Shown here: one piece after another, positions 1,062 through 18,968 of the stretch
How positions within the stretch are numbered: position 1 is the first letter of the stretch
Layout: each line of letters begins with the position of its first letter
IMG/VR virus record: IMGVR_UViG_3300030102_000787
Coordinates: 1 to 20,341 of that record
Origin: a virus
Reading direction: 5' to 3' (one strand)
Length of the DNA: 20,341 bases
The notes under the pieces: generated by a model
What the model saw: only the letters and a program-made list of their open reading frames with translations
Told to the model about the DNA's origin: nothing
The model's database searches: none
Made by a program: the position numbers and the translations under genes

Positions 1062-1226
1062 ATGTTTGAAAGATATATACAAAATGGTAATGAGCCTAAA
1101 TATTTATCAGGTAAAGGAAAGAAAGATAAAAAACCTAGAGTACTTCCTAAACCTGGTTCATATGCAGTTTCAGATTTACAGGACTTAAAGAAGAAAGTTC
1201 TTATGCATCAGGGAGGTAAGAGATGA
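1062..1226 (+). CDS. Small basic protein upstream of portal, 54 aa
   Basis: ATG 1062 follows the ribosome site AGGAGCGG (1051-1058). The 54-residue product is basic (GKGKKDKKPR) with a Pro-rich centre (RVLPKPGSYAV) and a short C-terminal helix (SDLQDLKKKVLMHQ). Its TGA overlaps the portal start as ATGA, and its last codons (GGGAGGTAAG) supply the portal ribosome site, so the two are very probably co-translated. Small proteins of this kind just before the portal are usual in marine podovirus genomes. Function is unknown to me. Confidence 0.6.
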   Translation: MFERYIQNGNEPKYLSGKGKKDKKPRVLPKPGSYAVSDLQDLKKKVLMHQGGKR

Positions 1227-3373
1227 CCGAACCTTATGGATATAAAGAACCTGTAACTGATGATGAATTAGTTGAGCTTATTGATAGAGGTATAATGAAT
1301 TCTAGCGGTGATTGGCTGGATTCAGCTGATTTATCAAGAGAAAGATTAAAAGCTACATACGAATATGCGGGTGTACCTGAAAGTCATTTAACACCACAGG
1401 GCGTAAGTACCATTGTTGATACATCTACAACAGAAGTTGTTGAAGCATATACTGCAATTATATCAGATTTATTTTTAAGTAATAATAAACTAGCACGCTT
1501 TGTACCTTATGATGACTCACCAGGCAGCTTTGCTGCGGCCAAAGACGCTTCAGCTATAGTAAATTATTGTTTGTTTAAAAAGAATAACGGCTGGGAGCTT
1601 ATGTCTCAGTGGATTAAAGCTGCGTTATTATGGAAAAATTCTGTATGTCGTTGGACATATATAGAAGATAAGAAGCATGAGTTTGAAGAATACGAAAGAA
1701 TTTCACAAGCTAAGCTAGATGAATTACTTTCAGATGAAAATACAGAAATTGTTGGCGAATTACAGTTTGAAAATGACTTTGCACCTGCAGATCCACTAAC
1801 AAGTATGCAGCCACAAGCAGAATTAATGTACATAAACGTACGATTAAAGAAAACAATTGACAGATCTCGTGTAAAATTAGACTTGGTTCCACCAGAAAAC
1901 TTTAGAATATCGCGTGAATCTACGTCAATCGAAGAAGCATCTTTTGTTGGTATACAAACAGAGATGACAAGATCAGAATTACGTAAGCATTATCCCGAAG
2001 AAACTGCAAATATTACAGAATGGGACGAATTAGGTGATACAGCTTACGCAGGTAGTCTAAGATATTCGCAAGAAGTTGCTGCAAGAAAAGAAATTACAGG
2101 ACAAGAGTACATATCAGGCAGCATGGTAGAAAATGATGCGCCATTAGAAGCTAATAAACCGGTAACAGTTACAGAATCGTGGCTAAATGTGGACAGAGAT
2201 GGCGATGGTATTGCAGAGTTAAAGCATATAATAACTGTTGGCGACTATATAATGTATGAAGAAGACATTGATAGCATACCATTAGCGTCTATTACACCTA
2301 TAGACATACCATTTGAGTTTTATGGTTTGTCAATGGCAGACTTTACTAGATCATCTACACTAGCATCTACTGCTATACTACGTGGATTTGTAGAGAATAC
2401 TTACTTAACTAACTATTCACCTAAACTTGCAGACCCTAATGTAGTTGACTTTAGTGCATTACAGAATATGAAGCCTAAACAGATTATACCAACTAACGGT
2501 AGTCCGGTAAATGCAGTACAACAGATGCAACCTGAAACAATATCTACAGGTACTGTACCATTATTAGAATACTTACAGCTAATAAAGGAGCAAGCAACGG
2601 GCATGTCGAAGGCCGCACAGGGCCTTAATGATACTTTGTATATATCAGGTAACTCAGAACAAAAGCTAGCTGCTGTGCAGTCCGCAGCGCAAAAGAGAAT
2701 ACAACATATTGCACGTAGGTTTGCTGAGACTGGATTTAAAAAGCTAGTTGCTGGTATATATGAAACTATGCGTAAGAATGTAAAAGGTAAAATGATGTAT
2801 AACCTAGAAGGTGTATACGGTACTGTTAATATGGATAGCTTACCTTCTAATATGGATGTAGAAATTTTATTAGATATTGGTGAAAACTCTAATGCTAATC
2901 AAATTCAAAAGCTATCTAAGATAGGTGGAGAGATATTACCTACATTAAATAAGCAGGGTGTAGGAATGGTTATTAAACCTGAAGCACCTGCTATATTAGC
3001 TACTAAGTTAATTGAAGCAATGAACTTAGATAGTAATGATTTCTTAGAGGACTATACTACTGATGAGTTTAAGCAGAAAGCTGCTCAAACAATTCAAAAG
3101 CAATCGCAAGATGCTGAACAAATGAAAGAGCTTGAAAAGAATAAAGCTGCTGCAGATTCCGCTTTAGCGGAGGCTAATGTAAGTTTTACTAATGCTCAAA
3201 CTAAAAATACTGAAGATGATAATGCAAAACAATTAGCTGTAGCTATAGATAAACATTATCAAGAATGGGCTGACCTTACTATTAAAGCAACTAAGGAAGG
3301 CGCACCAATAGCTGAGCATCCTAATTATGCTCAGATAATAATGATGGCCAAACAAATCTTAAAGGGAGAATAA
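1223..3373 (+). CDS. Portal protein, P22-like family
   Basis: The product is the 716-aa head-tail connector. Twelve copies are expected to form the ring at one capsid vertex through which DNA is packaged and ejected. The length and residue pattern fit the P22-type portal family. An N-terminal helical part (about 35-150) contains G-V-S-T-I-V-D and W-I-K-A-A-L-L-W-K, followed by the wing/stem part. A family hallmark D-R-D-G-D-G-I-A-E-L lies at 324-333 and a long helical barrel follows. The C-terminal region (about 605-665) is Gln/Ala/Lys-rich and reads as a coiled coil. The start is fixed by the GGGAGG site and the ATGA overlap. Position ahead of scaffold and capsid genes supports the call. The D-x-D-G-D-G stretch resembles a Ca-binding loop, but it is common in this family. 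Confidence 0.9.
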   Translation: MTEPYGYKEPVTDDELVELIDRGIMNSSGDWLDSADLSRERLKATYEYAGVPESHLTPQGVSTIVDTSTTEVVEAYTAIISDLFLSNNKLARFVPYDDSPGSFAAAKDASAIVNYCLFKKNNGWELMSQWIKAALLWKNSVCRWTYIEDKKHEFEEYERISQAKLDELLSDENTEIVGELQFENDFAPADPLTSMQPQAELMYINVRLKKTIDRSRVKLDLVPPENFRISRESTSIEEASFVGIQTEMTRSELRKHYPEETANITEWDELGDTAYAGSLRYSQEVAARKEITGQEYISGSMVENDAPLEANKPVTVTESWLNVDRDGDGIAELKHIITVGDYIMYEEDIDSIPLASITPIDIPFEFYGLSMADFTRSSTLASTAILRGFVENTYLTNYSPKLADPNVVDFSALQNMKPKQIIPTNGSPVNAVQQMQPETISTGTVPLLEYLQLIKEQATGMSKAAQGLNDTLYISGNSEQKLAAVQSAAQKRIQHIARRFAETGFKKLVAGIYETMRKNVKGKMMYNLEGVYGTVNMDSLPSNMDVEILLDIGENSNANQIQKLSKIGGEILPTLNKQGVGMVIKPEAPAILATKLIEAMNLDSNDFLEDYTTDEFKQKAAQTIQKQSQDAEQMKELEKNKAAADSALAEANVSFTNAQTKNTEDDNAKQLAVAIDKHYQEWADLTIKATKEGAPIAEHPNYAQIIMMAKQILKGE

Positions 3374-3769: not shown

Positions 3770-4192
3770 ATGAATCAAACATTAACTTTATTTGATCACT
3801 TTAATACATTAACACCTTATGCTGTTGGCTTTGATCGTTTATTCGATCAGCTTGCACATAGCTCAAGGGTAACTAAAACATATCCTCCATATGATATTAT
3901 GAAGGACGATGAATATAACTTTAGAATTGAAATGGCACTTGCAGGTTTCGGTAAAAAAGATATTGAAGTTGAAGTTGCAGATAATGTATTAAAAATAAAA
4001 TCTGTAAAAGAAAACGAACATGATGCAAAAAACGTTTACAAAGGTATATCATATAGAAAGTTTACCCGTGAGTTTACAATTGCAGATGACATTGAAGTTA
4101 AAGATGCAAAGTTAGAAGATGGTCTTTTAACTATATTACTGGAAAGAATTATTCCAGAAGAAAAGAAACCCAAATTAATTAAAATTAAATAG
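3770..4192 (+). CDS. hsp20: Small heat-shock protein, Hsp20/alpha-crystallin
   Basis: The 140-aa ATP-independent holdase chaperone binds unfolding proteins and forms oligomers. An N-terminal arm (1-40) contains FDRLFDQLAHSS, as in bacterial Hsp20. The alpha-crystallin domain spans about 41-128, with MALAGFGKKDIEVEV, S-Y-R-K-F-T-R-E-F-T-I and the family signature A113-x4-G118-x-L120. The C-terminal extension ends with the I137-K-I139 (I-x-I) motif that docks between dimers. All key elements are intact, so the protein should work. A strong site (AAAGGAG, 3756-3762) precedes ATG 3770. It sits between portal and scaffold genes. Phage-borne Hsp20 is known in cyanophages and other marine phages; a role in capsid folding is inference from position. 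Confidence 0.95.
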   Translation: MNQTLTLFDHFNTLTPYAVGFDRLFDQLAHSSRVTKTYPPYDIMKDDEYNFRIEMALAGFGKKDIEVEVADNVLKIKSVKENEHDAKNVYKGISYRKFTREFTIADDIEVKDAKLEDGLLTILLERIIPEEKKPKLIKIK

Positions 4193-5966: not shown

Positions 5967-7136
5967 ATGACTAATTTATTAGCTGTTCGCGCTACCGGAG
6001 GCCCAGGCGGTCCAACACGTGGCACAGGTGCTAATGTCTCGCAAAGAGAAGACCTAGCGAACTTTATAACAATGATTACTAGAGATGAGACTCCGTTCAC
6101 ATCAGACATTGGTAAATCATCCGCCACTGCTATTTATCACGAATGGCAAACAGATACACTTGAAGCTCCAGGTGATTCAAGAATCCCTGAAGGTCAAGAC
6201 TTCTTAGCTCCAGCTGCTGGTGGTGCTTCTGCAACTCCTACTGTTGGTAGTAAGTTTGCAGAGTCAGGTCCTCAGAGAACTAGACTAGGTAACTACACAC
6301 AGATCAATGGTAAAACTATTGCTGTGTCAGGAACAAGACGTGCAGTTGACCAAGCAGGTGTTGCAGACGAATATGCATACCAGCTTAAGAAGCGTGGTAC
6401 AGAACTACGAAGAGACGTTGAATTTGATATGATTCACGGCTATAACGTATCTGCTGCTATTAGTGCACAGAACGGTGACGCAAGATCAGCCGGTGGTTAT
6501 CAATCATTTATTAACAGCACAGATACATGTACTTATGTAGGTGAGTTTACACAGCCTGCTACAGGTACAGGTTCAAAGCCTAATAATGACGGAACTGAAA
6601 TTCCAAGAGCAACTATTGCTCCTTCAAGTTCTGCTGCTCCAGCAAGAGGAAGTTTAGCTCTTACTGATATTGATTCTGTTATGCAGAAGATTTATGAGCA
6701 AGGTGGTAAAGCTACAAAGATTATGGTATCACCAAAGATCCGAAGAGACTTCTCTGACCTTATGGTTAGTGATACAGGCGTAGTTAGAAACATTGATGCA
6801 GGTGGTCAGCTAAGACAATCTGTTGATGTGTATATGTCAGACTTCGGTGAGATTATGGTTATGCCTAACTATATTATGGGTCTATCTAACGTAATCGATA
6901 ATATGCTTGGATCTAACCATGCTTCTACAAAGTTTACCTCATCAGGTAGACCAGACATGGCTAACTTCTCAGCATTGATTTATGATCCAATGTGGTTTGC
7001 TACAGCTTACCTAAGACCTCTACAAGAGGTTGACGTAGGTCAGCAGGGTGACTCAACCAAAGGTATGATGGTTGAAGAATGTACTCTTGAAGTACGTAAC
7101 CCATTAGGTTGTGGAGCAATCTACGGACTTAACTAA
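5967..7136 (+). CDS. Major capsid protein, SU10/DUF5309 type
   Basis: This 389-aa coat protein should form the icosahedral or prolate shell. The pattern matches DUF5309-type capsid proteins as in phage SU10: an early I-T-R-D-E-T-P-F block (about residues 36-43), then H-E-W-Q-T-D-T-L-E and P-E-G-Q-D-F. Further matches are the N-Y-T-Q-I-N-G-K-T-I-A-V-S-G-T-R-R-A-V block near 110-128, E-L-R-R-D-V-E-F-D-M and F-G-E-I-M-V-M-P-N. The end V-E-E-C-T-L-E-V-R-N-P fits too. The HK97-type fold is family knowledge. The ribosome site AGGAG (5953-5957) is strong. Codon use here looks less A/T-ending than in the neighbours, as expected for a highly expressed gene. A strong terminator follows 10 bases after the stop. 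Confidence 0.92.
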   Translation: MTNLLAVRATGGPGGPTRGTGANVSQREDLANFITMITRDETPFTSDIGKSSATAIYHEWQTDTLEAPGDSRIPEGQDFLAPAAGGASATPTVGSKFAESGPQRTRLGNYTQINGKTIAVSGTRRAVDQAGVADEYAYQLKKRGTELRRDVEFDMIHGYNVSAAISAQNGDARSAGGYQSFINSTDTCTYVGEFTQPATGTGSKPNNDGTEIPRATIAPSSSAAPARGSLALTDIDSVMQKIYEQGGKATKIMVSPKIRRDFSDLMVSDTGVVRNIDAGGQLRQSVDVYMSDFGEIMVMPNYIMGLSNVIDNMLGSNHASTKFTSSGRPDMANFSALIYDPMWFATAYLRPLQEVDVGQQGDSTKGMMVEECTLEVRNPLGCGAIYGLN

Positions 7137-8871: not shown

Positions 8872-9744
8872 ATGCCGACTTATGCAAACTTTACAGCATT
8901 AGTTAGAGATTGGTCTAACAAAGATTCATCTGTATTATCTGATACCAGGATTCAAGATTGTTTAAGATATGCTGCGGATAAGTGTTACAGAAATCTTAGA
9001 GTAGCGGCATTAGAAAATACTATAACATATAACTCTACAGCTTTAGAAGCTGCTACTACAGCGGCTAATACTTTTTTACCAAGTCAAACAGATTTAACTT
9101 TACCAACTGATTTAATAGAGTTTATACAAATAAGAGAAATTGATTCAGCTGGTAGAACATGTAGAGTGTTTAATGAAAAAACTGATTTAAGAACATTTAA
9201 TGATTGGTCAGCACTTAAGACTAGTTATATAGGTTATTTTTCAAGACAGGGTAATACATTGTTATTAGCACCAGGATTTGGTCAAGCAAATAGTTTAAGC
9301 ACTGCAGATAAAATAGAATTACATTATTATAGAAGGCTACCTGCATTAAATGCACAGTATGATGTAACACCAGCTAACTATGCTGCAGGATTTTTAACAC
9401 AAGATAATGCAGCAGCTGTAAGTCTTTTCTTTGTTAATGGTGATAATAATACAGCTTATGCTACACAATCAGAAGCAACAGCAGCAGATACAGGAAATGC
9501 AGGAACGAATAATGCTAAATATAAAGGTAATGAAGCAGCTAATTGGTTAAGAGATGAAAATGAAAGAGTATTATTAATGGGTGCACTTGCAGAAGTATTT
9601 TATTATTTGCAAGATGACGATCAAGGCGTTAAGTATAAAAAGTTATTCGATCAAGAAATATTTGAATTGAATGACGAAGATTCTAAACGTAATGCAGCAG
9701 GAGGAAATGTACAAGTAAACTTTAGCGGAAGAGGGTTAATCTAA
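8872..9744 (+). CDS. Head-tail adaptor protein, SU10-like
   Basis: The 290-aa protein fits the phage adaptor family that docks under the portal and joins it to the tail. The pattern is an N-terminal helical part (A-L-V-R-D-W-S-N, then L-S-D-T-R-I-Q-D-C-L-R-Y-A-A-D-K-C-Y-R-N-L-R), L-P-T-D-L-I-E-F-I-Q-I-R-E-I (about 77-90) and beta strands with Y-F-S-R-Q-G-N-T-L-L-L-A-P. C-L-R-Y-A-A and a late helix E-N-E-R-V-L-L-M-G-A-L-A-E-V-F-Y-Y-L are usual for these proteins. A Thr/Asn/Ala-rich insert lies near 190-220. The partner portal and SU10-type capsid in the same window support the call. The ribosome site is AGGAG. The stop overlaps the first fibre gene (TAATG). Confidence 0.82.
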   Translation: MPTYANFTALVRDWSNKDSSVLSDTRIQDCLRYAADKCYRNLRVAALENTITYNSTALEAATTAANTFLPSQTDLTLPTDLIEFIQIREIDSAGRTCRVFNEKTDLRTFNDWSALKTSYIGYFSRQGNTLLLAPGFGQANSLSTADKIELHYYRRLPALNAQYDVTPANYAAGFLTQDNAAAVSLFFVNGDNNTAYATQSEATAADTGNAGTNNAKYKGNEAANWLRDENERVLLMGALAEVFYYLQDDDQGVKYKKLFDQEIFELNDEDSKRNAAGGNVQVNFSGRGLI

Positions 9745-12011
9745 TGACAACACCAGCAGCACCAGATACAGTCAATTCTATTGGCGCAACAGAAGACGCT
9801 TCTAAAGGTGGATTATTTAATAGATTGAATAATACTACTCTTTCAACACTTGAACAAGCAATAGCAACTAAAGCTACTAATGCAGCAACTTCTGCTACTA
9901 ATGCAAAGACTAGTGAAACTAATGCAGCAACTTCAGCAACTAACGCAGCAACTAGCGCAACTAATGCGGGAACTTCAGAAACTAATGCAAGTAATAGTGC
10001 AAGTGCTGCAGCAACTTCAGCTACTAATGCGGCTAATACTTTAGATGCTTTTGATGATAGATATTTAGGAAATAAAACTAGTGATCCTACTGTTGATAAT
10101 GATGGTAATGCATTACTAACAGGCGCATTGTATTTTAAAACTACAGATAATATAATGCGAGTTTATACTGGATCCTCTTGGGTTACAGTTAAACCAACAT
10201 CTTCAGATCAAACTGCAATTAACGCAGTAAACGCTAATGCTACTAATATTAATGCTGTAAATAGTAACTCAAGTAATATTAATGCAGTAGCAGGCAATGC
10301 TACCAATATTAATGCGGTAAATAGTAACTCTAGTAATATTAATGCTGTTGTAGGAAATGCTACAAATATTAACACAGTAGCAGGAGATACTTCAGAAATT
10401 AATACAGTAGCAGGTATTGCAAGTAATATAACTACAGTTGCTAATAATAATACTAACGTAACTACAGTTGCTAATAATAATACAAATATTACTACTGTTG
10501 CAGGTATTAGTTCTAATGTTACAAGTGTAGCTACTAACATATCAAACGTAAATACAGTGGCAGCAATCTTTGAAGGTACTGCTACATATACTGTTACTGT
10601 TCAAGGTGGTGTATTTTATATTAATACAGGAAGTGGTGCCACGAGTAAACCAGCACTCACACTTGTAAAAGGTTTTACTTATACATTTGATGTTAGTGAT
10701 AATACTAATAGTGGACATCCACTTGCATTTAAAGATGCATCAGGAAATGCTTATACTACAGGAGTAACTGTAACTGGTACAGCTGGTCAAGCAGGAGCTA
10801 AAGTAGTTTTTGCAGTACCAAGTACAGGAACACAACCAGCTAGATATTATTGTACACAGCATGGTAATGGTATGGGTAATACTATTACTACTGAAAATAA
10901 TGATATTGCAGAAGTACTAACTATTTCAAATGAGATTACAACAGTAGCTGGTATTTCAAGTAATGTTACAACTGTTGCAGGTATAAGTGCTAACGTAACT
11001 ACAGTAGCTGGTATAAGCGCCAATGTAACTACTGTAGCCGGTATAAGTGCTAATGTTACAACAGTTGCTGGAATACATGCTAACGTAACTACAGTAGCTG
11101 GAGATACTACAGAAATTAATGCAGTTGCAGGTAATGCTACTAATATTAATACAGTAGCTGGAATATCTAGTAATGTAACTACTGTGGCTGGAATACAGGC
11201 TAATGTAACTACAGTCGCAAACAATAATAGTAATGTAACTAGCGTAGCAAATAATGCAAGTAATATAAATACAGTAGCTGGTGCCGCAACTAATATTAAT
11301 ACAGTAGCATCAAATATATCTCACGTTAGTACAGTAAGCGGTGCAATAGCTAATGTTAATACAGTTGCTACAAATATAACTAATGTAAACGCTTTTGCTA
11401 ATACTTATTTTATAGGAAGCTCAGCACCTTCAGGTGGAACGATTGGTAGTGGTGATTTATGGTACGATACTAATACATCACAAATGAAAGTATATAACGG
11501 TTCGGCATGGGTAACATTTGTTTCAACATATGATACAGATGATTTATCTGAAGGTAGTTCAAACTTATACTATACTAATACAAGAGCTGATGCTAGAATT
11601 ACAAATGCTTTTAGTAATGCTGTAAGTTTAGGTAATAACTTAACTGTTGCTGGCGAACTTCGTGGTCCAGCTACATTTGTTATTGATCCAGCAGTAGTAG
11701 GTAATAATACAGGTTTAGTTCAGATTAAAGGAAGTCTACAAGTAGATGGTACAACAACTACAGTAAACTCTCAGACATTAGATGTTACTGATAAAAATAT
11801 TACAATTGCAAATGGTTCTGCAAATGCAGCTGCCGCTAATGGTGGTGGTTTAACAATTGATTGTGGAAGTGATACAGATGCAACATTTACTTATGCAAAT
11901 GCAGATGATTCGCTTAGTGTAAATAAAACTTTTAAAGCACCTGCAGTTAAGATAAATGGAGCTGATGCAGCATCACAAGGTTTTGCGGTAGCAATGGCAA
12001 TAGCATTATAG
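9744..12011 (+). CDS. Long repeat tail fibre with cupredoxin-like insert
   Basis: This 755-aa fibre begins with an N-terminal attachment region (1-43). Eight heptapeptide units of the ATNAATS type follow (44-99). A short domain with R-Y-L-G-N-K-T-S-D-P and L-Y-F-K-T-T-D-N (106-150) precedes eleven decapeptides of the NxTNINTVAG type (165-274). An inserted domain (276-385) has the cupredoxin pattern with H325, C370, H373 and M377. Sixteen more decapeptides fill 394-553. The C-terminal region carries D-L-W-Y-D-T-N-T-S-Q-M, L-Y-Y-T-N-T-R-A-D-A-R-I and V-N-S-Q-T-L-D-V-T-D, modules shared with other marine phage fibres. It lies directly after the adaptor. It could attach the whole fibre set to the tail. 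No S74 end is present. Confidence 0.88.
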   Translation: MTTPAAPDTVNSIGATEDASKGGLFNRLNNTTLSTLEQAIATKATNAATSATNAKTSETNAATSATNAATSATNAGTSETNASNSASAAATSATNAANTLDAFDDRYLGNKTSDPTVDNDGNALLTGALYFKTTDNIMRVYTGSSWVTVKPTSSDQTAINAVNANATNINAVNSNSSNINAVAGNATNINAVNSNSSNINAVVGNATNINTVAGDTSEINTVAGIASNITTVANNNTNVTTVANNNTNITTVAGISSNVTSVATNISNVNTVAAIFEGTATYTVTVQGGVFYINTGSGATSKPALTLVKGFTYTFDVSDNTNSGHPLAFKDASGNAYTTGVTVTGTAGQAGAKVVFAVPSTGTQPARYYCTQHGNGMGNTITTENNDIAEVLTISNEITTVAGISSNVTTVAGISANVTTVAGISANVTTVAGISANVTTVAGIHANVTTVAGDTTEINAVAGNATNINTVAGISSNVTTVAGIQANVTTVANNNSNVTSVANNASNINTVAGAATNINTVASNISHVSTVSGAIANVNTVATNITNVNAFANTYFIGSSAPSGGTIGSGDLWYDTNTSQMKVYNGSAWVTFVSTYDTDDLSEGSSNLYYTNTRADARITNAFSNAVSLGNNLTVAGELRGPATFVIDPAVVGNNTGLVQIKGSLQVDGTTTTVNSQTLDVTDKNITIANGSANAAAANGGGLTIDCGSDTDATFTYANADDSLSVNKTFKAPAVKINGADAASQGFAVAMAIAL
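9873..10040 (+). repeat. Heptapeptide-coding repeat array (8 units)
   Basis: Eight 21-base units code for ATNAATS, ATNAKTS, ETNAATS, ATNAATS, ATNAGTS, ETNASNS, ASAAATS and ATNAANT. A seven-residue period rich in Ala, Thr and Asn suggests a trimeric coiled stalk typical of fibres. The DNA copies differ by many silent changes, so selection acts on the protein. Confidence 0.8.
10236..10565 (+). repeat. Decapeptide-coding repeat block 1 (11 units)
   Basis: Eleven 30-base units code for ten-residue repeats such as NATNINAVNS, NSSNINAVAG, IASNITTVAN and NNTNITTVAG. The consensus is x-x-(T/S)-N-(I/V)-(N/T)-(T/A)-V-(A/N)-(G/N/S). The reading frame and period are unbroken up to the cupredoxin-like insert. 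Confidence 0.85.
10569..10898 (+). other. Region coding cupredoxin-like domain in fibre
   Basis: Residues 276-385 of the fibre have strand-rich sequence with the pattern Y-T-F-D-V-S-D-N-T-N-S-G-H-P-L-A-F, T-G-V-T-V-T-G-T-A-G-Q-A-G-A and Y-Y-C-T-Q-H-G-N-G-M-G. H325, C370, H373 and M377 match the order of type 1 copper ligands in plastocyanin-like proteins. The Cys-x2-His spacing is as in plastocyanin, but His-x3-Met is one residue shorter. The fold is inferred from this pattern. Copper binding is untested. Confidence 0.7.
10923..11402 (+). repeat. Decapeptide-coding repeat block 2 (16 units)
   Basis: Sixteen 30-base units code for ten-residue repeats, most regular in the first half (ISSNVTTVAG, three ISANVTTVAG, IHANVTTVAG) and drifting at the end (NISHVSTVSG, AIANVNTVAT, NITNVNAFAN). 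Together with block 1 it gives 27 units of the same period on both sides of the insert. Codon differences between identical peptides show the array is not a recent copy. Confidence 0.85.
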
Positions 12012-12365: not shown

Positions 12366-14030
12366 ATGTCATACGTAGGAAACCCTTTAGCAAATGCATT
12401 TTCATCTAGGGAAAAACAAGATCTTACAGGACAAAGTGGTACTAGCTTTACTTTGACTCACGCAGTATCTCATGCAAATGATTTATCAGTTTATATAAAC
12501 CATGTACGACAAGAACCAACAACAGCTTATTCAGTTAATGGAACTACATTAACAACTACGGGTAGTGTTGCAGGAACAGATGACTTTTATATTATATATG
12601 ATGAGTTAGCAGTACAAAGTATTTCGCATCCAACTGATCAAGCTTTAACTGCTACATCTGGTACGTTTACTAGTGGGCTAGTAGGCACTACTGCTACATT
12701 TAGTGGTGCTATAAGTGGTACACTAGGAACTGCTGCTCAACCAAATATAACAAGTACTGGTACATTAACTGGATTAACTGTTGATGGTGATGCAACACTA
12801 ACTGGTGCTAACTATAACGTAACATGGGATAAATCTGACAATGCATTAGAGTTTGGTGACAATGCTAAATTAACTTTTGGTGCTGGAAATGATTTACAAA
12901 TATATCATACTCCTGGCACTGGCTCATTTATAGACGAAGCTGATGATGGTTCTTTATTTATAAGAAGTAGCCGAATAACCATGCACAAGTACACTGGCGA
13001 AACTATGATAAACGCTGCGGCAGATAGTGCAGTTAGTCTTTATTATGATGATAGCAAAAAATTAAGTACAGCTACTAATGGTGTAGAAATATATAATGGT
13101 TCTACTGGTAATACTCCTACAATAATATTTAAAGATATGAATAGTGGTGTAGTTGGTGGAGATGAGGGTGGAGGAATTTACTGGTACACAAATGACGGTA
13201 ATGGACAAGGTAATAATGCTTCTATACGTTCTATATACCAAAATGCTGCAGGAGGAACAGCCTTACTTTTTGGAACTGGTACTGGTAGTACAAGATATGA
13301 TAGAATAGTTATTAGAGAAGGTGGTAAAGTATCTATAGGCGATCAAACAGGAGGTGCAGGATTATACGTAACAAACACATATGATTATGGTTATGGTTTA
13401 ACTAGTAATGCAAATACTCAACAATTAAAAGGTGGAGTAGCTTTTGTTAATCCAGATACTGGTGATTCAAGTGTTAATACAAATATATTTCATCAGCCTA
13501 ATAGATTTGGTTGGTCTATGTTTTATTGTAATAAAATTGTAGATGCCGCTCCTTCTAATGATAATCGTTATTTTGATTTTTATTGGAATACAACAAGTGC
13601 TAGTACAAAAGGAACTATTAAATATAATTATAGTTCTGGTGTTATGGAGTATAATACTACTTCTGATTATAGATTAAAAGATAATATACAAGATGCAAAT
13701 ATTTCTACACTTTATGAAGATATGAAAAAAGTTAAAGTTAGAACATTTCATATGAAAAAAGATCATGATCCTGGAGCATCAGATACAATAGGTTTAATAG
13801 CACATGAAGCTCAAGAAGTTTGGTCACAAGTATGTGATAAACCTAAAGATGCAGTTAAAGATGATATTGAAGGTGGCACTAAAGATTCTGACGGAAATCC
13901 AGCAAAAGTTCCAGATTATCAAGAGTTAGATTATGGAAAATTTACTCCTATGATTATGGGTGCATTGCAAAAGGCTATGGAAAAAATAGAAGCATTAGAA
14001 GCTAAAGTAAAAGTATTGGAGAGTAAATAA
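12366..14030 (+). CDS. Tail fibre with C-terminal S74 chaperone
   Basis: The 554-aa fibre has an N-terminal module (1-85) with S-F-T-L-T-H-A-V and V-Y-I-N-H-V-R-Q-E-P, found in other marine-phage fibre genes. Stalk modules follow (A-T-F-S-G-A-I-S-G-T; A-L-E-F-G-D-N-A-K-L), then a variable shaft and tip region (about 160-430). The Peptidase S74 intramolecular chaperone domain spans 433-554. It shows S-D-Y-R-L-K-D-N-I with S433 and K438 as the expected dyad, I-G-L-I-A-H-E-A-Q-E-V, D-Y-G-K-F-T-P and a C-terminal coiled coil (EALEAKVKVLE). Self-cleavage before S433 would release about 122 residues after trimer folding. AGGAGG (12357-12362) precedes the start. Confidence 0.92.
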   Translation: MSYVGNPLANAFSSREKQDLTGQSGTSFTLTHAVSHANDLSVYINHVRQEPTTAYSVNGTTLTTTGSVAGTDDFYIIYDELAVQSISHPTDQALTATSGTFTSGLVGTTATFSGAISGTLGTAAQPNITSTGTLTGLTVDGDATLTGANYNVTWDKSDNALEFGDNAKLTFGAGNDLQIYHTPGTGSFIDEADDGSLFIRSSRITMHKYTGETMINAAADSAVSLYYDDSKKLSTATNGVEIYNGSTGNTPTIIFKDMNSGVVGGDEGGGIYWYTNDGNGQGNNASIRSIYQNAAGGTALLFGTGTGSTRYDRIVIREGGKVSIGDQTGGAGLYVTNTYDYGYGLTSNANTQQLKGGVAFVNPDTGDSSVNTNIFHQPNRFGWSMFYCNKIVDAAPSNDNRYFDFYWNTTSASTKGTIKYNYSSGVMEYNTTSDYRLKDNIQDANISTLYEDMKKVKVRTFHMKKDHDPGASDTIGLIAHEAQEVWSQVCDKPKDAVKDDIEGGTKDSDGNPAKVPDYQELDYGKFTPMIMGALQKAMEKIEALEAKVKVLESK

Positions 14031-14893
14031 TGGCATTATCAAAAATAACAGCTGCAAGTTTAGCCACGACTGTTCTTACTCCTATAGCTACTGGTGGTAC
14101 AGAACAGGAATATGAAGATAATGGAACTAATTATAGATCACATAGTTTTTTAACTCCAGGAACACATAGATTTAGTACAAGTACTACATTAACAGTAGAC
14201 TTTCTTATAGTAGCTGGGGGTGGTGGTGGAGCTATGGCTTCAAGTAATACTGGTACAACTGGCGGTGCAGGTGCTGGTGGTTTAGTTGAAGGAACCTCAC
14301 AAACTTTAGCTCCAGGAAATTATACAGTAGTTGTTGGTGATGGTGGTGCAAGATCAACAGGCACAACAACAAGTGGAAGTAATGGTGGTAATAGTACGTT
14401 TAACGGTTTTACTGCAACTGGTGGAGGAGGAAGTCCAACATATAATGGCACATCTGCAACTGGTGGTTCTGGGGCTGGTGGTTCTGAACCTAATAAAGCA
14501 GGAGCAGCTTCAACACAAGATGCTTATTCAGGAACTACTAATGTAACTGGTTATGGTAATGCTGGTGGAAATGGTGGATCGTATGATAACGGTTCTGCTC
14601 CTTTTGGTTCTGGTAGTGGAGGAGGAGCTGGTGGTGCTGGAGGTAATGCAAATCAAAATAGTGCAGGTACTTCATCAACAGTTACTGGTGGAGCAGGAAG
14701 AGCAAATAGCTTTAGATCAGGAAGTAATGTAACTTATTCTACTGGTGGGCAAGGTGTAAATGGTGAAATTCATGGTTTAGCTGGAACACCTAATACTGGA
14801 GATGGAGCTGGTGGAACTTCATCTGGTGGTGGTGGAAATACAGCTGCATCTAAAGGTGGTTCTGGAATCGTAGTAATACGATATGCAATATAG
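14030..14893 (+). CDS. Glycine-rich tail adhesin
   Basis: The 287-aa product starts at a TAATG overlap with the S74 fibre. The N-terminal 55 residues form a small attachment part (S-H-S-F-L-T-P-G-T-H-R-F). D-F-L-I-V-A-G-G-G-G-G-A then opens a domain rich in Gly, Ser, Thr, Asn and Ala to the end, with G-G-A-G-A-G-G, G-N-G-G-S and many further GG runs. The C-terminus G-G-S-G-I-V-V-I-R-Y-A-I is the usual last strand of this family. Gly-rich receptor-binding domains of phage adhesins can pack as polyglycine-II sandwiches, with short variable loops that touch the receptor. That model is family knowledge and not visible here. It probably decides host specificity. Confidence 0.8.
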   Translation: MALSKITAASLATTVLTPIATGGTEQEYEDNGTNYRSHSFLTPGTHRFSTSTTLTVDFLIVAGGGGGAMASSNTGTTGGAGAGGLVEGTSQTLAPGNYTVVVGDGGARSTGTTTSGSNGGNSTFNGFTATGGGGSPTYNGTSATGGSGAGGSEPNKAGAASTQDAYSGTTNVTGYGNAGGNGGSYDNGSAPFGSGSGGGAGGAGGNANQNSAGTSSTVTGGAGRANSFRSGSNVTYSTGGQGVNGEIHGLAGTPNTGDGAGGTSSGGGGNTAASKGGSGIVVIRYAI

Positions 14894-15420: not shown

Positions 15421-15891
15421 ATGCCATATATAGGTAAGCAATTAATACAAGGGGAGTTTATAAAGCTAGACAGTATTACTACGTCAGCTACAGCAACTTT
15501 TGCCTTGCAACGTGCAGGTGTAGCTTATACTCCAGCTAGTGCTGAATCAATGATTGTAAGTTTAAATGGGGTAACACAAGCACCTATTGATGCTTATACT
15601 TTAAGTGGTAGTAACATTGTATTTGCTTCTGCACTTACAAGTAATGATGTAATAGATTATATAATAATACTAGGTGAAACAGGATCTTTAACTACACCAG
15701 CTGATGGTACAGTTACAGCAGCTAAGTTAAGTTCACAGTTAGCTAGAGGTGCTACACCAATTAGAATAAATACTAATACACTAGCAACTAGCCAGACAAT
15801 AGCTTCAGGTGAAAATGGCAGTGTAATAGGACCAGTAACAATTAATAATGGAGTGACCATAACTGTTAATGGTACATTTACGGTGATATAA
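15421..15891 (+). CDS. Short fibre module protein, 156 aa
   Basis: AAAGGAGAATA precedes ATG 15421. The N-terminal half carries T-F-A-L-Q-R-A-G-V-A-Y-T-P, S-M-I-V-S-L-N-G-V-T-Q-A-P and F-A-S-A-L-T-S-N-D-V-I-D-Y-I-I-I-L-G. It is a compact beta module that occurs as a domain in many marine-phage fibres, including a related type at the start of the S74 fibre here (SFTLTHAVS...INHVRQEP). The C-terminal part has A-A-K-L-S-S-Q-L and I-A-S-G-E-N-G-S-V-I-G-P-V-T-I-N-N-G-V-T-I-T-V-N-G, a beta-strand end known from fibre tips. The whole protein is thus one attachment module plus one cap. The stop overlaps the next start (TAATG). Confidence 0.75.
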   Translation: MPYIGKQLIQGEFIKLDSITTSATATFALQRAGVAYTPASAESMIVSLNGVTQAPIDAYTLSGSNIVFASALTSNDVIDYIIILGETGSLTTPADGTVTAAKLSSQLARGATPIRINTNTLATSQTIASGENGSVIGPVTINNGVTITVNGTFTVI

Positions 15892-16436
15892 TGAGTAAAT
15901 TATTTGTAGATACAATAGAAGGTAATACTGGAAATACTATTGCTATTAGCGATTCTGTTTCAGCTTTAAAAACAGGAACTATTCAAAGTGCTGGTGGTAC
16001 TACTGCTATGACCATAGATAGTAATGGTCGTATTTTAAAACCTGCTATTCCAAGATTTAGTGCTAGAATGCAAGGGAGTGGTGCATCTAGTAATAGTGAA
16101 AGTTGGACTACAATGATTTTTGATAATACACTAGTAAATAATGGTAATTGTTACAATACTAGTACTGGAGCATTTACTGCTCCTATTGCAGGTGATTATT
16201 GGTTTAGTACTCATGTAGTACAAGGTAGCTCAAGTCCTGCTTATGGTGTATTAAAATGGTTAAAGAATGGTTCTACTAACTATACTGGTAATAAAGCTTA
16301 CTCATCTGGTTATGATACTTTTATGAGCTTATCTATTATACTTACTTTAGCAGCTAATGATACTTTAGTAGTTCAGTGTTATAACAGATTTAGAAAAGAT
16401 GATTACGGATCTTTTCAAGGATACTTATTAGGGTAG
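15891..16436 (+). CDS. C1q-like tail tip protein 1, 181 aa
   Basis: The start is at a TAATG overlap. The N-terminal attachment segment (1-35) has L-F-V-D-T-I-E-G. A linker A-G-G-T-T-A-M-T-I-D-S-N-G-R-I (about 35-49) leads to P-R-F-S-A-R. A C1q/TNF-like jelly-roll follows (about 52-181): Y-N-T-S-T-G-A-F-T-A-P-I-A-G-D-Y-W-F-S, then L-T-L-A-A-N-D-T-L-V-V-Q and the end S-F-Q-G-Y-L-L-G. This matches the C1q order G-x-F-x-A-P-x-x-G-x-Y, L-x-x-x-D and F-x-G-x-L. A trimeric, receptor-binding tip is the expected role. It is followed by two related genes, so the region is a set of paralogous tips. Confidence 0.8.
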   Translation: MSKLFVDTIEGNTGNTIAISDSVSALKTGTIQSAGGTTAMTIDSNGRILKPAIPRFSARMQGSGASSNSESWTTMIFDNTLVNNGNCYNTSTGAFTAPIAGDYWFSTHVVQGSSSPAYGVLKWLKNGSTNYTGNKAYSSGYDTFMSLSIILTLAANDTLVVQCYNRFRKDDYGSFQGYLLG

Positions 16437-16445
16437 GGAAATAAT

Positions 16446-17147
16446 ATGACAAGTACAATACACGCAGATAAAATAATGAATTCAAGTGGAGATCAAGACT
16501 CTGGAGTTGATCTCTTAGTAAACGATCAGGTTAAATTAAAGACTGCTAATACCGATAGGGTAACAGTAACTGATGCTACAACTACTGTAGCTAATGCTTT
16601 AGCTGTTACAGGTGAATCTACTCTTACTGGTGGTGCTAAAGTAAATACTATCAAGCATACTGGTGGTACTACTGGTATAACTATTAATACCAATGGCATT
16701 GTAACAAAAGCAGCTCACCCAGCTTTTCAAGCATACTATAACAGTGATAATTATTGTTGGACGGATACTACTGATGGTAATTTTGATTTACAAACACTTT
16801 CCAGTGTACGATTTAATAGAGGTAATCATTATAACACTACAAACCATCGGTTTATTGCACCAGTAGCTGGTATATATCAATTTTATGGTCAATTTTTTAC
16901 AAACTATACTAGTAACTATGCTAGAGGAGGAGTACAAATTCGTGTAAACGGATCAGCAAAAACAGAAACTTGGATTGGAAATTATGATACTGCAACTAGT
17001 GCAGTTTCATCAGTTACTATTGAATTAGCTGCAAATGATTATGTACAATTATATACAGCTCTTTATGATGGGAATGCAACAAGCAATAACTATAGTGTAT
17101 ATTGTGGTGCTACACTTACATATTTAAGCGGGCATTTGGTAGGATAG
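16446..17147 (+). CDS. C1q-like tail tip protein 2, 233 aa
   Basis: The gene starts 9 bases after the previous stop, with AGGGAAATA as ribosome site. The N-terminus has T-I-H-A-D-K-I-M-N-S-S-G-D and then a beta stalk module (L-L-V-N-D-Q-V-K-L-K, A-L-A-V-T-G-E-S-T-L). The linker T-G-G-T-T-G-I-T-I-N-T-N-G-I-V-T-K-A matches that of the previous protein. The C1q-like domain (about 95-233) has H-R-F-I-A-P-V-A-G-I-Y-Q-F-Y, V-Q-I-R-V-N-G, I-E-L-A-A-N-D-Y-V-Q-L and the ending L-S-G-H-L-V-G. The aromatic residues around 96-115 (YYNSDNYCWT) are a likely variable surface. Confidence 0.82.
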   Translation: MTSTIHADKIMNSSGDQDSGVDLLVNDQVKLKTANTDRVTVTDATTTVANALAVTGESTLTGGAKVNTIKHTGGTTGITINTNGIVTKAAHPAFQAYYNSDNYCWTDTTDGNFDLQTLSSVRFNRGNHYNTTNHRFIAPVAGIYQFYGQFFTNYTSNYARGGVQIRVNGSAKTETWIGNYDTATSAVSSVTIELAANDYVQLYTALYDGNATSNNYSVYCGATLTYLSGHLVG

Positions 17148-17156
17148 GAGAACAGA

Positions 17157-18065
17157 ATGACATCAATTATAAAAGTACAAAATATACAATACACAGATGG
17201 AGATGCTGCTCTTACTATTGCTGATGGTGGTGGAGTAACTGCTGCTTCTAATTTAGCTGTAACAGGAACTTCAACATTAAGTAATACTCTAAATGTATCT
17301 CATGGAACATCAGGAGCTAATGTAGCAACATTTGTAAATACATCGGCTAATGGTAGTAGTAATGGTGTTGTTCATGTAAAACAAACTGGTGCAACTAATC
17401 AACCTACAATGGTTTTAGAACAAACTGGTGGTGGTGGTAATCCAAGTGATACTCAAGGATTGCATATAAAAATGGCTGGTCAAAACCAAGGAACTGGTAA
17501 AGCTATAAGAATAACAACAGAAAATTCAAGTCTCAATAGTGGTAATGCTTATGATCCATTTACAGTTACTAATGGTGGTGGTTTAACTATTAAAAATACT
17601 TCTAATATAACTACTTTAGATTTGACTACAGCTGGTGTATTAAGTGCAGCAAAACAACCTATGTGTGCTGGCTTTAGAACTGGAACTAGATTAAATACTT
17701 CTAATGGTTATGCAATTAATACGTATCATAAAGTTCCTTTTACAGAATATCTTGATACAACTAATAGTTATAATACAAGTACTCATCAATATACTTTTCC
17801 AGTAGCGGGAAAATATTTGTATAGTACTAAACAATTGGTTTATAGTTCTAGTGGTGGATATATTTCTTTTGAGTTTACATATAATTCTTCTAAACAAGCT
17901 TATATTTATCAGGATATGGAAAATCGTTGGGAATCAATAGGTGGTTCATTTTTAATTAATGCAGCAGCTAATGATACTTGTCATTTAGATGTTTATTACA
18001 CTAGTGCTGGAGCAAAGGTACATGAGGGTGCTCATGGATTTTTTAATATAATTAAAATAGCATAA
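17157..18065 (+). CDS. C1q-like tail tip protein 3, 302 aa
   Basis: TAGGAGAACAG precedes ATG 17157. It is the longest of the set. The N-terminal part has S-I-I-K-V-Q-N-I-Q-Y-T-D-G and N-L-A-V-T-G-T-S-T-L-S-N. A stalk follows with M-V-L-E-Q-T-G-G-G-G-N-P and L-H-I-K-M-A-G. A degenerate linker (LTIKNTSNITTLDLTTAG) leads into the C1q-like end (about 170-302). That end contains Y-N-T-S-T-H-Q-Y-T-F-P-V-A-G-K-Y-L-Y, G-G-S-F-L-I-N-A-A-A-N-D-T-C-H-L-D-V-Y and G-F-F-N-I-I-K. The terminal strand differs from the FxGxL ending of the two neighbours. It is probably the third member of an array from duplication and divergence. Confidence 0.8.
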   Translation: MTSIIKVQNIQYTDGDAALTIADGGGVTAASNLAVTGTSTLSNTLNVSHGTSGANVATFVNTSANGSSNGVVHVKQTGATNQPTMVLEQTGGGGNPSDTQGLHIKMAGQNQGTGKAIRITTENSSLNSGNAYDPFTVTNGGGLTIKNTSNITTLDLTTAGVLSAAKQPMCAGFRTGTRLNTSNGYAINTYHKVPFTEYLDTTNSYNTSTHQYTFPVAGKYLYSTKQLVYSSSGGYISFEFTYNSSKQAYIYQDMENRWESIGGSFLINAAANDTCHLDVYYTSAGAKVHEGAHGFFNIIKIA

Positions 18066-18079
18066 AAAGGAGAAAAATT

Positions 18080-18355
18080 ATGGCAGATTATACTGTTAAA
18101 CTTACAGACACAGAAGATAAAGCAATGACTTATTGTGCTGTATCAACACAAGAATGGGTAGATAATGCCCTTAAAAATAGAGCAAGGATTGCTAAAGATG
18201 AAATAATTGCAGCTAACATGGCACACTGTAATGCTAATGGAATAGCAATAGCAACAGGGGAAGACAAACAAGTTGAACAAGCGTTTACTTTAAAAGTAGT
18301 TAAAACAGCTAAAGAGGTAAATGAAGAAGCAGAAAAAAATACACCATTTAAATAG
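18080..18355 (+). CDS. Small conserved protein among fibre genes, 91 aa
   Basis: AAAAGGAGAAAAATT gives a strong start at ATG 18080. The 91-aa product is not fibre-like. It opens with a beta piece (MADYTVKLTDTEDKAM), then helical segments with Q-E-W-V-D-N-A-L-K-N-R-A-R-I-A-K-D-E-I-I-A-A-N-M and E-Q-A-F-T-L-K-V-V-K-T-A-K-E-V. It ends in a charged tail (ENTPFK after NEEAEK). I know similar 'MADYT..LTD......NA..NRARIA..EII' proteins in tail-fibre regions of marine phages. A chaperone or connector for fibre assembly is a reasonable guess from location, not proven. Confidence 0.72.
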   Translation: MADYTVKLTDTEDKAMTYCAVSTQEWVDNALKNRARIAKDEIIAANMAHCNANGIAIATGEDKQVEQAFTLKVVKTAKEVNEEAEKNTPFK

Positions 18356-18365
18356 GGAGAACTAA

Positions 18366-18968
18366 ATGGCTATCACAAAACTAAAAGCTCTCGGAGTTAC
18401 CGATGGTACTCTAACTAATACACAAATAAATGCAAGTGCTGCGATAGCTAAAACTAAACTTGCTGCTTTAGACATTGTTAATGCAGACGTTAATGCTAGT
18501 GCTGCTATAGCTTCAAGTAAAGTATCAGGATTACCTATTGTATTTGCTTATAGCACAACTTCACAAACTATATCACCAACTACATGGACTTATGTAAATA
18601 TACCTACTCAAGTTATTGATACACATAACGTATTTGATCCAACAACTGTTTCTTATTGGCAACTACCAGCAGGAAAATATTTTATGTCTGCTACAGTTGA
18701 CTTAGAGTGTAGTGTTCATAACAATATGACTGCACAGTATGTAAGGTTTACACAAGATGGATCATCTATTAATGGATCCGAAGTCGATCAATATATGAAT
18801 CATACTGGTGGAGATCATTTTACTTCTACAAGTAAACATACAGCAATTATACATAATTGTCAACAAGGAAATAGTAATGTTATGAGATTACAAACTTGGG
18901 CAAATTCTGGAGCAGGAACAATAGCAATTAAAAGAGTTCAACTTTCTGTGCAAGGATTAATAGCATAG
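18366..18968 (+). CDS. Tail tip protein with C1q-like end, 200 aa
   Basis: AGGGAGAACTA precedes ATG 18366. Residues 1-55 are two copies of a stalk unit: N-T-Q-I-N-A-S-A-A-I-A-K-T-K-L-A-A-L and N-A-D-V-N-A-S-A-A-I-A-S-S-K-V-S-G-L. The rest (about 58-200) is a jelly-roll-like tip with Y-W-Q-L-P-A-G-K-Y-F-M-S-A-T-V-D-L-E, V-R-F-T-Q-D-G-S-S-I-N-G and I-A-I-K-R-V-Q-L-S-V-Q-G-L. This keeps the G-x-Y-x-F/M core of C1q-like domains but is more divergent than the three upstream tips. The His-rich middle (MNHTGGDHFTSTSKHTAIIH) is unusual and could coordinate a metal in a trimer. It is the last fibre-type gene of the block. Confidence 0.75.
   Translation: MAITKLKALGVTDGTLTNTQINASAAIAKTKLAALDIVNADVNASAAIASSKVSGLPIVFAYSTTSQTISPTTWTYVNIPTQVIDTHNVFDPTTVSYWQLPAGKYFMSATVDLECSVHNNMTAQYVRFTQDGSSINGSEVDQYMNHTGGDHFTSTSKHTAIIHNCQQGNSNVMRLQTWANSGAGTIAIKRVQLSVQGLIA

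Follow-up and report, generated by a model that had tools for sequence, protein, structure and literature searches.

We found that a long tail fibre of a marine virus of bacteria carries an exchangeable domain with the predicted fold and the complete set of four proposed metal ligands (His, Cys, His and Met) of blue-copper proteins, and that related domains occur on the fibres of many ocean phages and in predicted surface proteins of marine microbes, some of them stalked. Copper binding by the domain is likely, although it rests on sequence and structure prediction alone. Cupredoxins and phage-borne plastocyanin genes are already known and metal sites in fibres have been proposed for iron, but searches for cupredoxins in phage tails or virions found nothing relevant in the literature we could search, which does not cover most subscription journals. 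If the site holds copper, the tail fibres of many marine phages are metalloproteins with a type 1 centre, which to that extent is unreported.

The window, the whole 20,341-nt stretch of the virus record analysed here, encodes portal, capsid and adaptor proteins of the SU10 type in order, and the nearest isolate by capsid protein is Roseobacter phage CRP-7 at 52%. Directly after the adaptor gene lies a 755-aa fibre gene, which has PHROG tail fiber hits and is the positional counterpart of the gene for the proximal long-tail-fibre protein gp12 of SU10, of which six trimers per virion are docked on the adaptor gp11 (PMC9509320). The fibre consists of an N-terminal part, two arrays of a 10-residue unit encoded by 30-bp tandem repeats, a C-terminal part and, between the arrays, a segment of about 107 residues with no repeat. 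The domain starts after '...NISNVNTVAAIFEG' and the next unit begins 'NDIAEVLTISNEITTVAGIS', so it lies at a unit boundary. The earlier note had described a cupredoxin-like domain inserted as a unit into the repeat array, with an ordered set H325, C370, H373 and M377 in the spacing C-x2-H-x3-M, and its residue numbers and spacing were confirmed.

Table 1 Features of the fibre gene, its surroundings in the window and related loci.
Sequence	Coordinates	Strand	Feature	Basis
Window	1223-3373	+	SU10-type portal protein	PF23899, E 6e-130
Window	3770-4192	+	Small heat shock protein (Hsp20) encoded between the portal and capsid genes	PF00011, E 1.4e-19
Window	5967-7136	+	SU10-type major capsid protein	PF17236, E 2.2e-70
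Window	8872-9744	+	SU10-type adaptor protein	PF24175, E 3.3e-14
Window	9744-12011	+	Long tail fibre, 755 aa	PHROG hits; gene order adaptor-fibre compared with SU10 gp11-gp12
Window	10215-10565	+	N-terminal decapeptide repeat array (residues ~158-274), predicted alpha-helical with low confidence	30-bp tandem repeats; helix 2-54 of the segment model
Window	10578-10898	+	Predicted cupredoxin-fold domain (residues ~279-385)	AlphaFold2; Foldseek
Window	10716-10718	+	His325, proposed metal ligand 1	Conservation
Window	10851-10853	+	Cys370, proposed metal ligand 2 (thiolate), end of strand 91-96 of the model	Conservation; position in fold
Window	10860-10862	+	His373, proposed metal ligand 3	Conservation
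Window	10872-10874	+	Met377, proposed axial ligand 4	Conservation
Window	10899-11402	+	C-terminal decapeptide repeat array (residues ~386-553)	30-bp tandem repeats; helix 173-227 of the segment model, low confidence
Window	11403-12011	+	C-terminal part of the fibre, shared with the domain-less fibre L302	blastp
Window	12366-14030	+	Second fibre-like protein with a C-terminal S74 endosialidase-type chaperone domain	PF13884
Window	14030-14893	+	Glycine-rich protein, possibly an adhesin of the T4 gp38 kind	PF21722, E 1.2e-18
Window	15891-18968	+	Several consecutive short ORFs that share an N-terminal stub and end in similar jelly-roll-like stretches ('...YNTSTGAFTAPIAGDYWF...'), like a set of exchangeable fibre tips as separate genes
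L166 (genome contig)	2065-3324		Predicted Marine Group II surface lipoprotein with a collagen-like stalk and a C-terminal cupredoxin-like domain with all four ligands (as in L165-L176); L166 also has DUF7151
L359 (KU594606)	91950-92700		Ligand-dead copy of the domain (N/S/A/A), interrupted by an insert, in the same S-RIM32 protein as an intact copy

To determine whether the segment forms a domain of its own, we modelled it with AlphaFold2 from an alignment of 44 relatives (A1) and obtained a beta sandwich of about ten strands with a pLDDT of 95.8 and a pTM of 0.89. Foldseek comparison with the PDB returned mostly cupredoxins, namely small laccases, plastocyanins, rusticyanin and nitrite reductases, with probabilities mostly of 0.9-1.0 (1.00 for the best), TM of about 0.45-0.55 on the query and E-values of 2e-3 to 2e-2, although no hit passed 1e-3 (best 1.9e-3) and the Shewanella peptidase SO1698 scored nearly as high as the cupredoxins. 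A search of BFVD gave 55 viral hits at E<=1e-3, the named ones mostly fibres, baseplate proteins and other structural proteins. A model of the domain together with its flanking arrays reached a mean pLDDT of only 41, and we took from it only the helical tendency of the arrays. These results indicated that the fold class is most likely a cupredoxin, distant from every solved one.

Sequence searches alone did not reach this assignment. No Pfam or NCBIfam model scored above its cut-off, including PF13473 (Cupredoxin_1); PF00127 (Copper-bind) was found below cut-off in 5 of the 44 relatives with a best E of 0.004 and not in the window member, and TIGR03102 was found in one cellular relative at E 0.008, again below cut-off. 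Profile comparison with genuine cupredoxins from the same archaeal and SAR86 genomes aligned only the Cys-His-Met loop, with Cys and His in register but weakly, and PDB sequence searches with the domain and with profiles A1 and A3 gave only weak, mostly chance hits such as antibodies and SUMO. The Pfam matches to Fve and At5g54830 were weak, although that to At5g54830 (12 of 44 members, best 1.3e-4) may reflect a real distant relation in plants.

We next evaluated the conservation of the four proposed ligands. In the model, H51 (H325) precedes a strand, C96 (C370) ends a strand, and H99 (H373) and M103 (M377) follow in the loop before the last strand, which is the order of a type 1 copper site. 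After setting aside rows truncated at contig ends, all four residues were kept in 218 of 219 distinct domains spanning the site and in 18 of 18 clusters at 60% identity, at a mean pairwise identity of about 45%. This was not an effect of the search, since loci fetched with patterns that do not touch the ligands gave 72/72 (viral) and 21/21 (genome contigs). The isolates P-HM1, Baldr, S-TIM66, S-RIM32, S-H9-2, ACG-2014h, P-TIM68, MED4-213, C48C1 and AG-345-A17 keep all four. The exceptions provided the strongest evidence: the one domain of the 219 that deviates, L074, has N, S, N and Y in the four places while being 81% identical to the intact L186, and in cyanophage S-RIM32 one structural protein has an intact copy beside a second copy, read by eye, with N, S, A and A. 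No partial loss was seen, an apparent loss of Met in cellular members (HCHT/HCHA) being an alignment shift by one column. Residues far apart in sequence that vanish only together point to one shared function, which is the pattern that a single metal site predicts, and the dead copies also suggest that the fold survives without the metal. Both tests proposed in the earlier note, of the predicted fold and of free variation at the four positions, were thus run, and neither refuted its reading.

Its description requires two adjustments. The spacing C-x2-H-x3-M, found in the window and in most of this phage group, is one of two loop lengths, the other being C-x2-H-x2-M in cellular relatives and other phages, which has the spacing of amicyanin (Cys92, His95, Met98; PMC12723479); on a tree of 50 domains most long-loop forms fell in one large phage group with a nested short-loop group, although many branches were weakly supported. 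In addition, the domain is not peculiar to shafts, as it occurs in tandem pairs in 15 of 239 ORFs and in many other virion proteins. All PHROG families with a stated function that match are tail or virion families, and the BFVD fold matches include baseplate wedge-fibre connectors, proximal tail fibres and the S-TIM5 structural protein.

Insertion as a unit was supported by relatives of the same fibre gene with and without the domain. Among fibre genes next to the adaptor, all eleven close relatives examined carry it, whereas L302, a locus whose adaptor is 77% identical, has a 608-aa fibre with a related N-terminal part (41%), a related C-terminal part (residues 388-755 of the fibre in the window versus 167-608 of that in L302, 54% identity) and repeats of a different type (NVTNMNNLNGTNVITHM) in the shaft, but no domain. 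The locus L288 likewise has arrays and no domain, and the CRP-7 fibre has neither.

Genome contigs gave homologues of the domain (hhalign 99.9%, E 9e-35) with the same four ligands, mostly in predicted extracytoplasmic proteins. Proteins of Marine Group II archaea start with a lipobox signal (e.g. MKSNRSNAIAILLALTMTASALAGC), have collagen-like repeats (PF01391, 1.2e-17) and end with the domain, SAR86 proteins have a lipobox, a Pro-rich stretch and the domain, and a flavobacterial one is a lipoprotein with CHRD domains, the signal and lipobox calls being our reading of the sequence. In L166 the neighbours are, again by our reading, ordinary chromosomal genes such as one for a ParA-like protein, and in the archaeal family 14 of 60 genomes have a match. 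The genome hits L160-L164 look like phage contigs in bins and were not counted as cellular; among them (L161-L164), two contigs of 62,825 and 55,371 b are listed under the same contig numbers and lengths in two unrelated MAGs (Flavobacteriales TMED123 and Neomarinimicrobiota MED589) and were probably binned twice. In cells the domain is thus predicted to sit on stalks outside the membrane, much as it sits on fibres of phages.

Considering these results together, we propose that the segment is a cupredoxin-fold domain with a complete type 1 copper ligand set, mounted as an exchangeable module in the shaft of the long tail fibre of an SU10-like marine podovirus. We infer that the fibre assembles in the reducing cytosol with an empty but pre-formed site and takes up copper from seawater or the host periplasm after lysis, and that the copper-closed face then serves as a surface-contact module adding weak, reversible binding of the virion to host cells or particles, as the related domains probably do at the ends of stalked surface lipoproteins of marine archaea and bacteria. 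By analogy with SU10 (six trimeric fibres) there would be about 18 copies per virion. We give this reading as a whole a probability of about 0.5: the fold is close to certain, a single functional metal site is held with high confidence and copper as its metal is likely, whereas the surface-contact role is tentative, since nothing directly shows a role in adhesion and the shaft is not the usual place for a receptor-binding tip. A broader reading, which we regard as unlikely, is that ocean phages across several lineages carry true type 1 copper sites on their adsorption organelles, loaded outside the cell and used to recognise hosts or sense the host surface, with the module shared with stalked copper proteins on marine archaea and bacteria, so that phage particles would be a pool of bound copper in seawater.

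Other explanations appeared less probable, although a copper lure, a structural rivet and a redox role remain open. The metal might act only as a structural rivet stiffening a joint or spacer between two coiled-coil-like stretches, as the position between two arrays predicted helical at low confidence and the similar domains in baseplate-fibre connectors would allow, but the persistence of ligand-less copies suggests that the fold does not need the metal, the domain-less L302 fibre shows that the joint is dispensable, and tandem pairs are not what a simple joint needs; we consider this unlikely. Somewhat less likely still is a copper lure recognised by a host copper-uptake or copper-handling surface protein, a copper version of the iron Trojan-horse idea for tail fibres. 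A conserved metal site on the fibres of many phages fits the pattern proposed for iron and HxH motifs (PMC11705849), yet no receptor is known, this fibre has no HxH motif, the domain is in the shaft rather than the tip, and the breadth of hosts (cyanobacteria, SAR11) argues against a single copper receptor.

A redox role, in which the site exchanges electrons or scavenges reactive oxygen at the host surface, would suit a ligand set that is typically that of electron carriers and a fibre that would touch the host envelope. It is nevertheless doubtful, because no redox partner was recognised nearby, the Marine Group II and SAR86 relatives have no recognisable enzyme domain in the same protein, and the virion has no obvious use for electron transfer. 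Binding of another metal such as zinc or iron in the sea is similarly improbable: cupredoxin sites can take up zinc in place of copper, but the ligand set and loop spacing are those of type 1 copper sites, with two to four residues between Cys and His as in blue and red cupredoxins (PMC4059628). Least likely is a metal-free decoration domain with ligands kept for structural reasons. The scattered, modular distribution in virion proteins resembles that of Ig-like decoration domains, and BFVD labels one relative as an immunoglobulin-domain protein, but the four residues are among the least variable positions over the 18 clusters and are lost only together, which is hard to explain without a shared ligand, and the single Cys cannot form a disulfide within the domain.

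Compared with type 1 copper cupredoxins (plastocyanin, azurin, amicyanin; PF00127), the domain shares the predicted beta-sandwich fold and the ligand order His...Cys-x2-His-x2/3-Met, with the first His before a strand, Cys at the end of the penultimate strand and Met before the last strand, but it has no significant sequence match, is part of a virion fibre, has in the window a spacing between those of amicyanin (x2,x2) and plastocyanin (x2,x4), and has His followed by Pro instead of Asn. Cyanophage plastocyanin (petE) is also a phage-borne cupredoxin fold (PMC5083919), but it is a free metabolic protein acquired from hosts and belongs to another sequence family. The HxH motifs of T4 gp37 and alterophage R22Y are likewise proposed metal sites in a phage fibre, but they are His-only motifs of a trimeric fibre proposed to bind iron, whereas here one chain supplies H, C, H and M within a separate folded domain. 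SU10 gp12 has the same gene position and a similar length (786 aa), with no metal domain noted in the parts of its published description consulted, and the Ig-like decoration domains of tailed phages are also modular beta sandwiches inserted in assorted virion proteins. The collagen-like surface lipoproteins of Marine Group II (L165-L176) carry a homologous domain with the same four ligands, but they are cellular, and their domain is C-terminal on a collagen-like stalk with the loop C-x2-H-x2-M.
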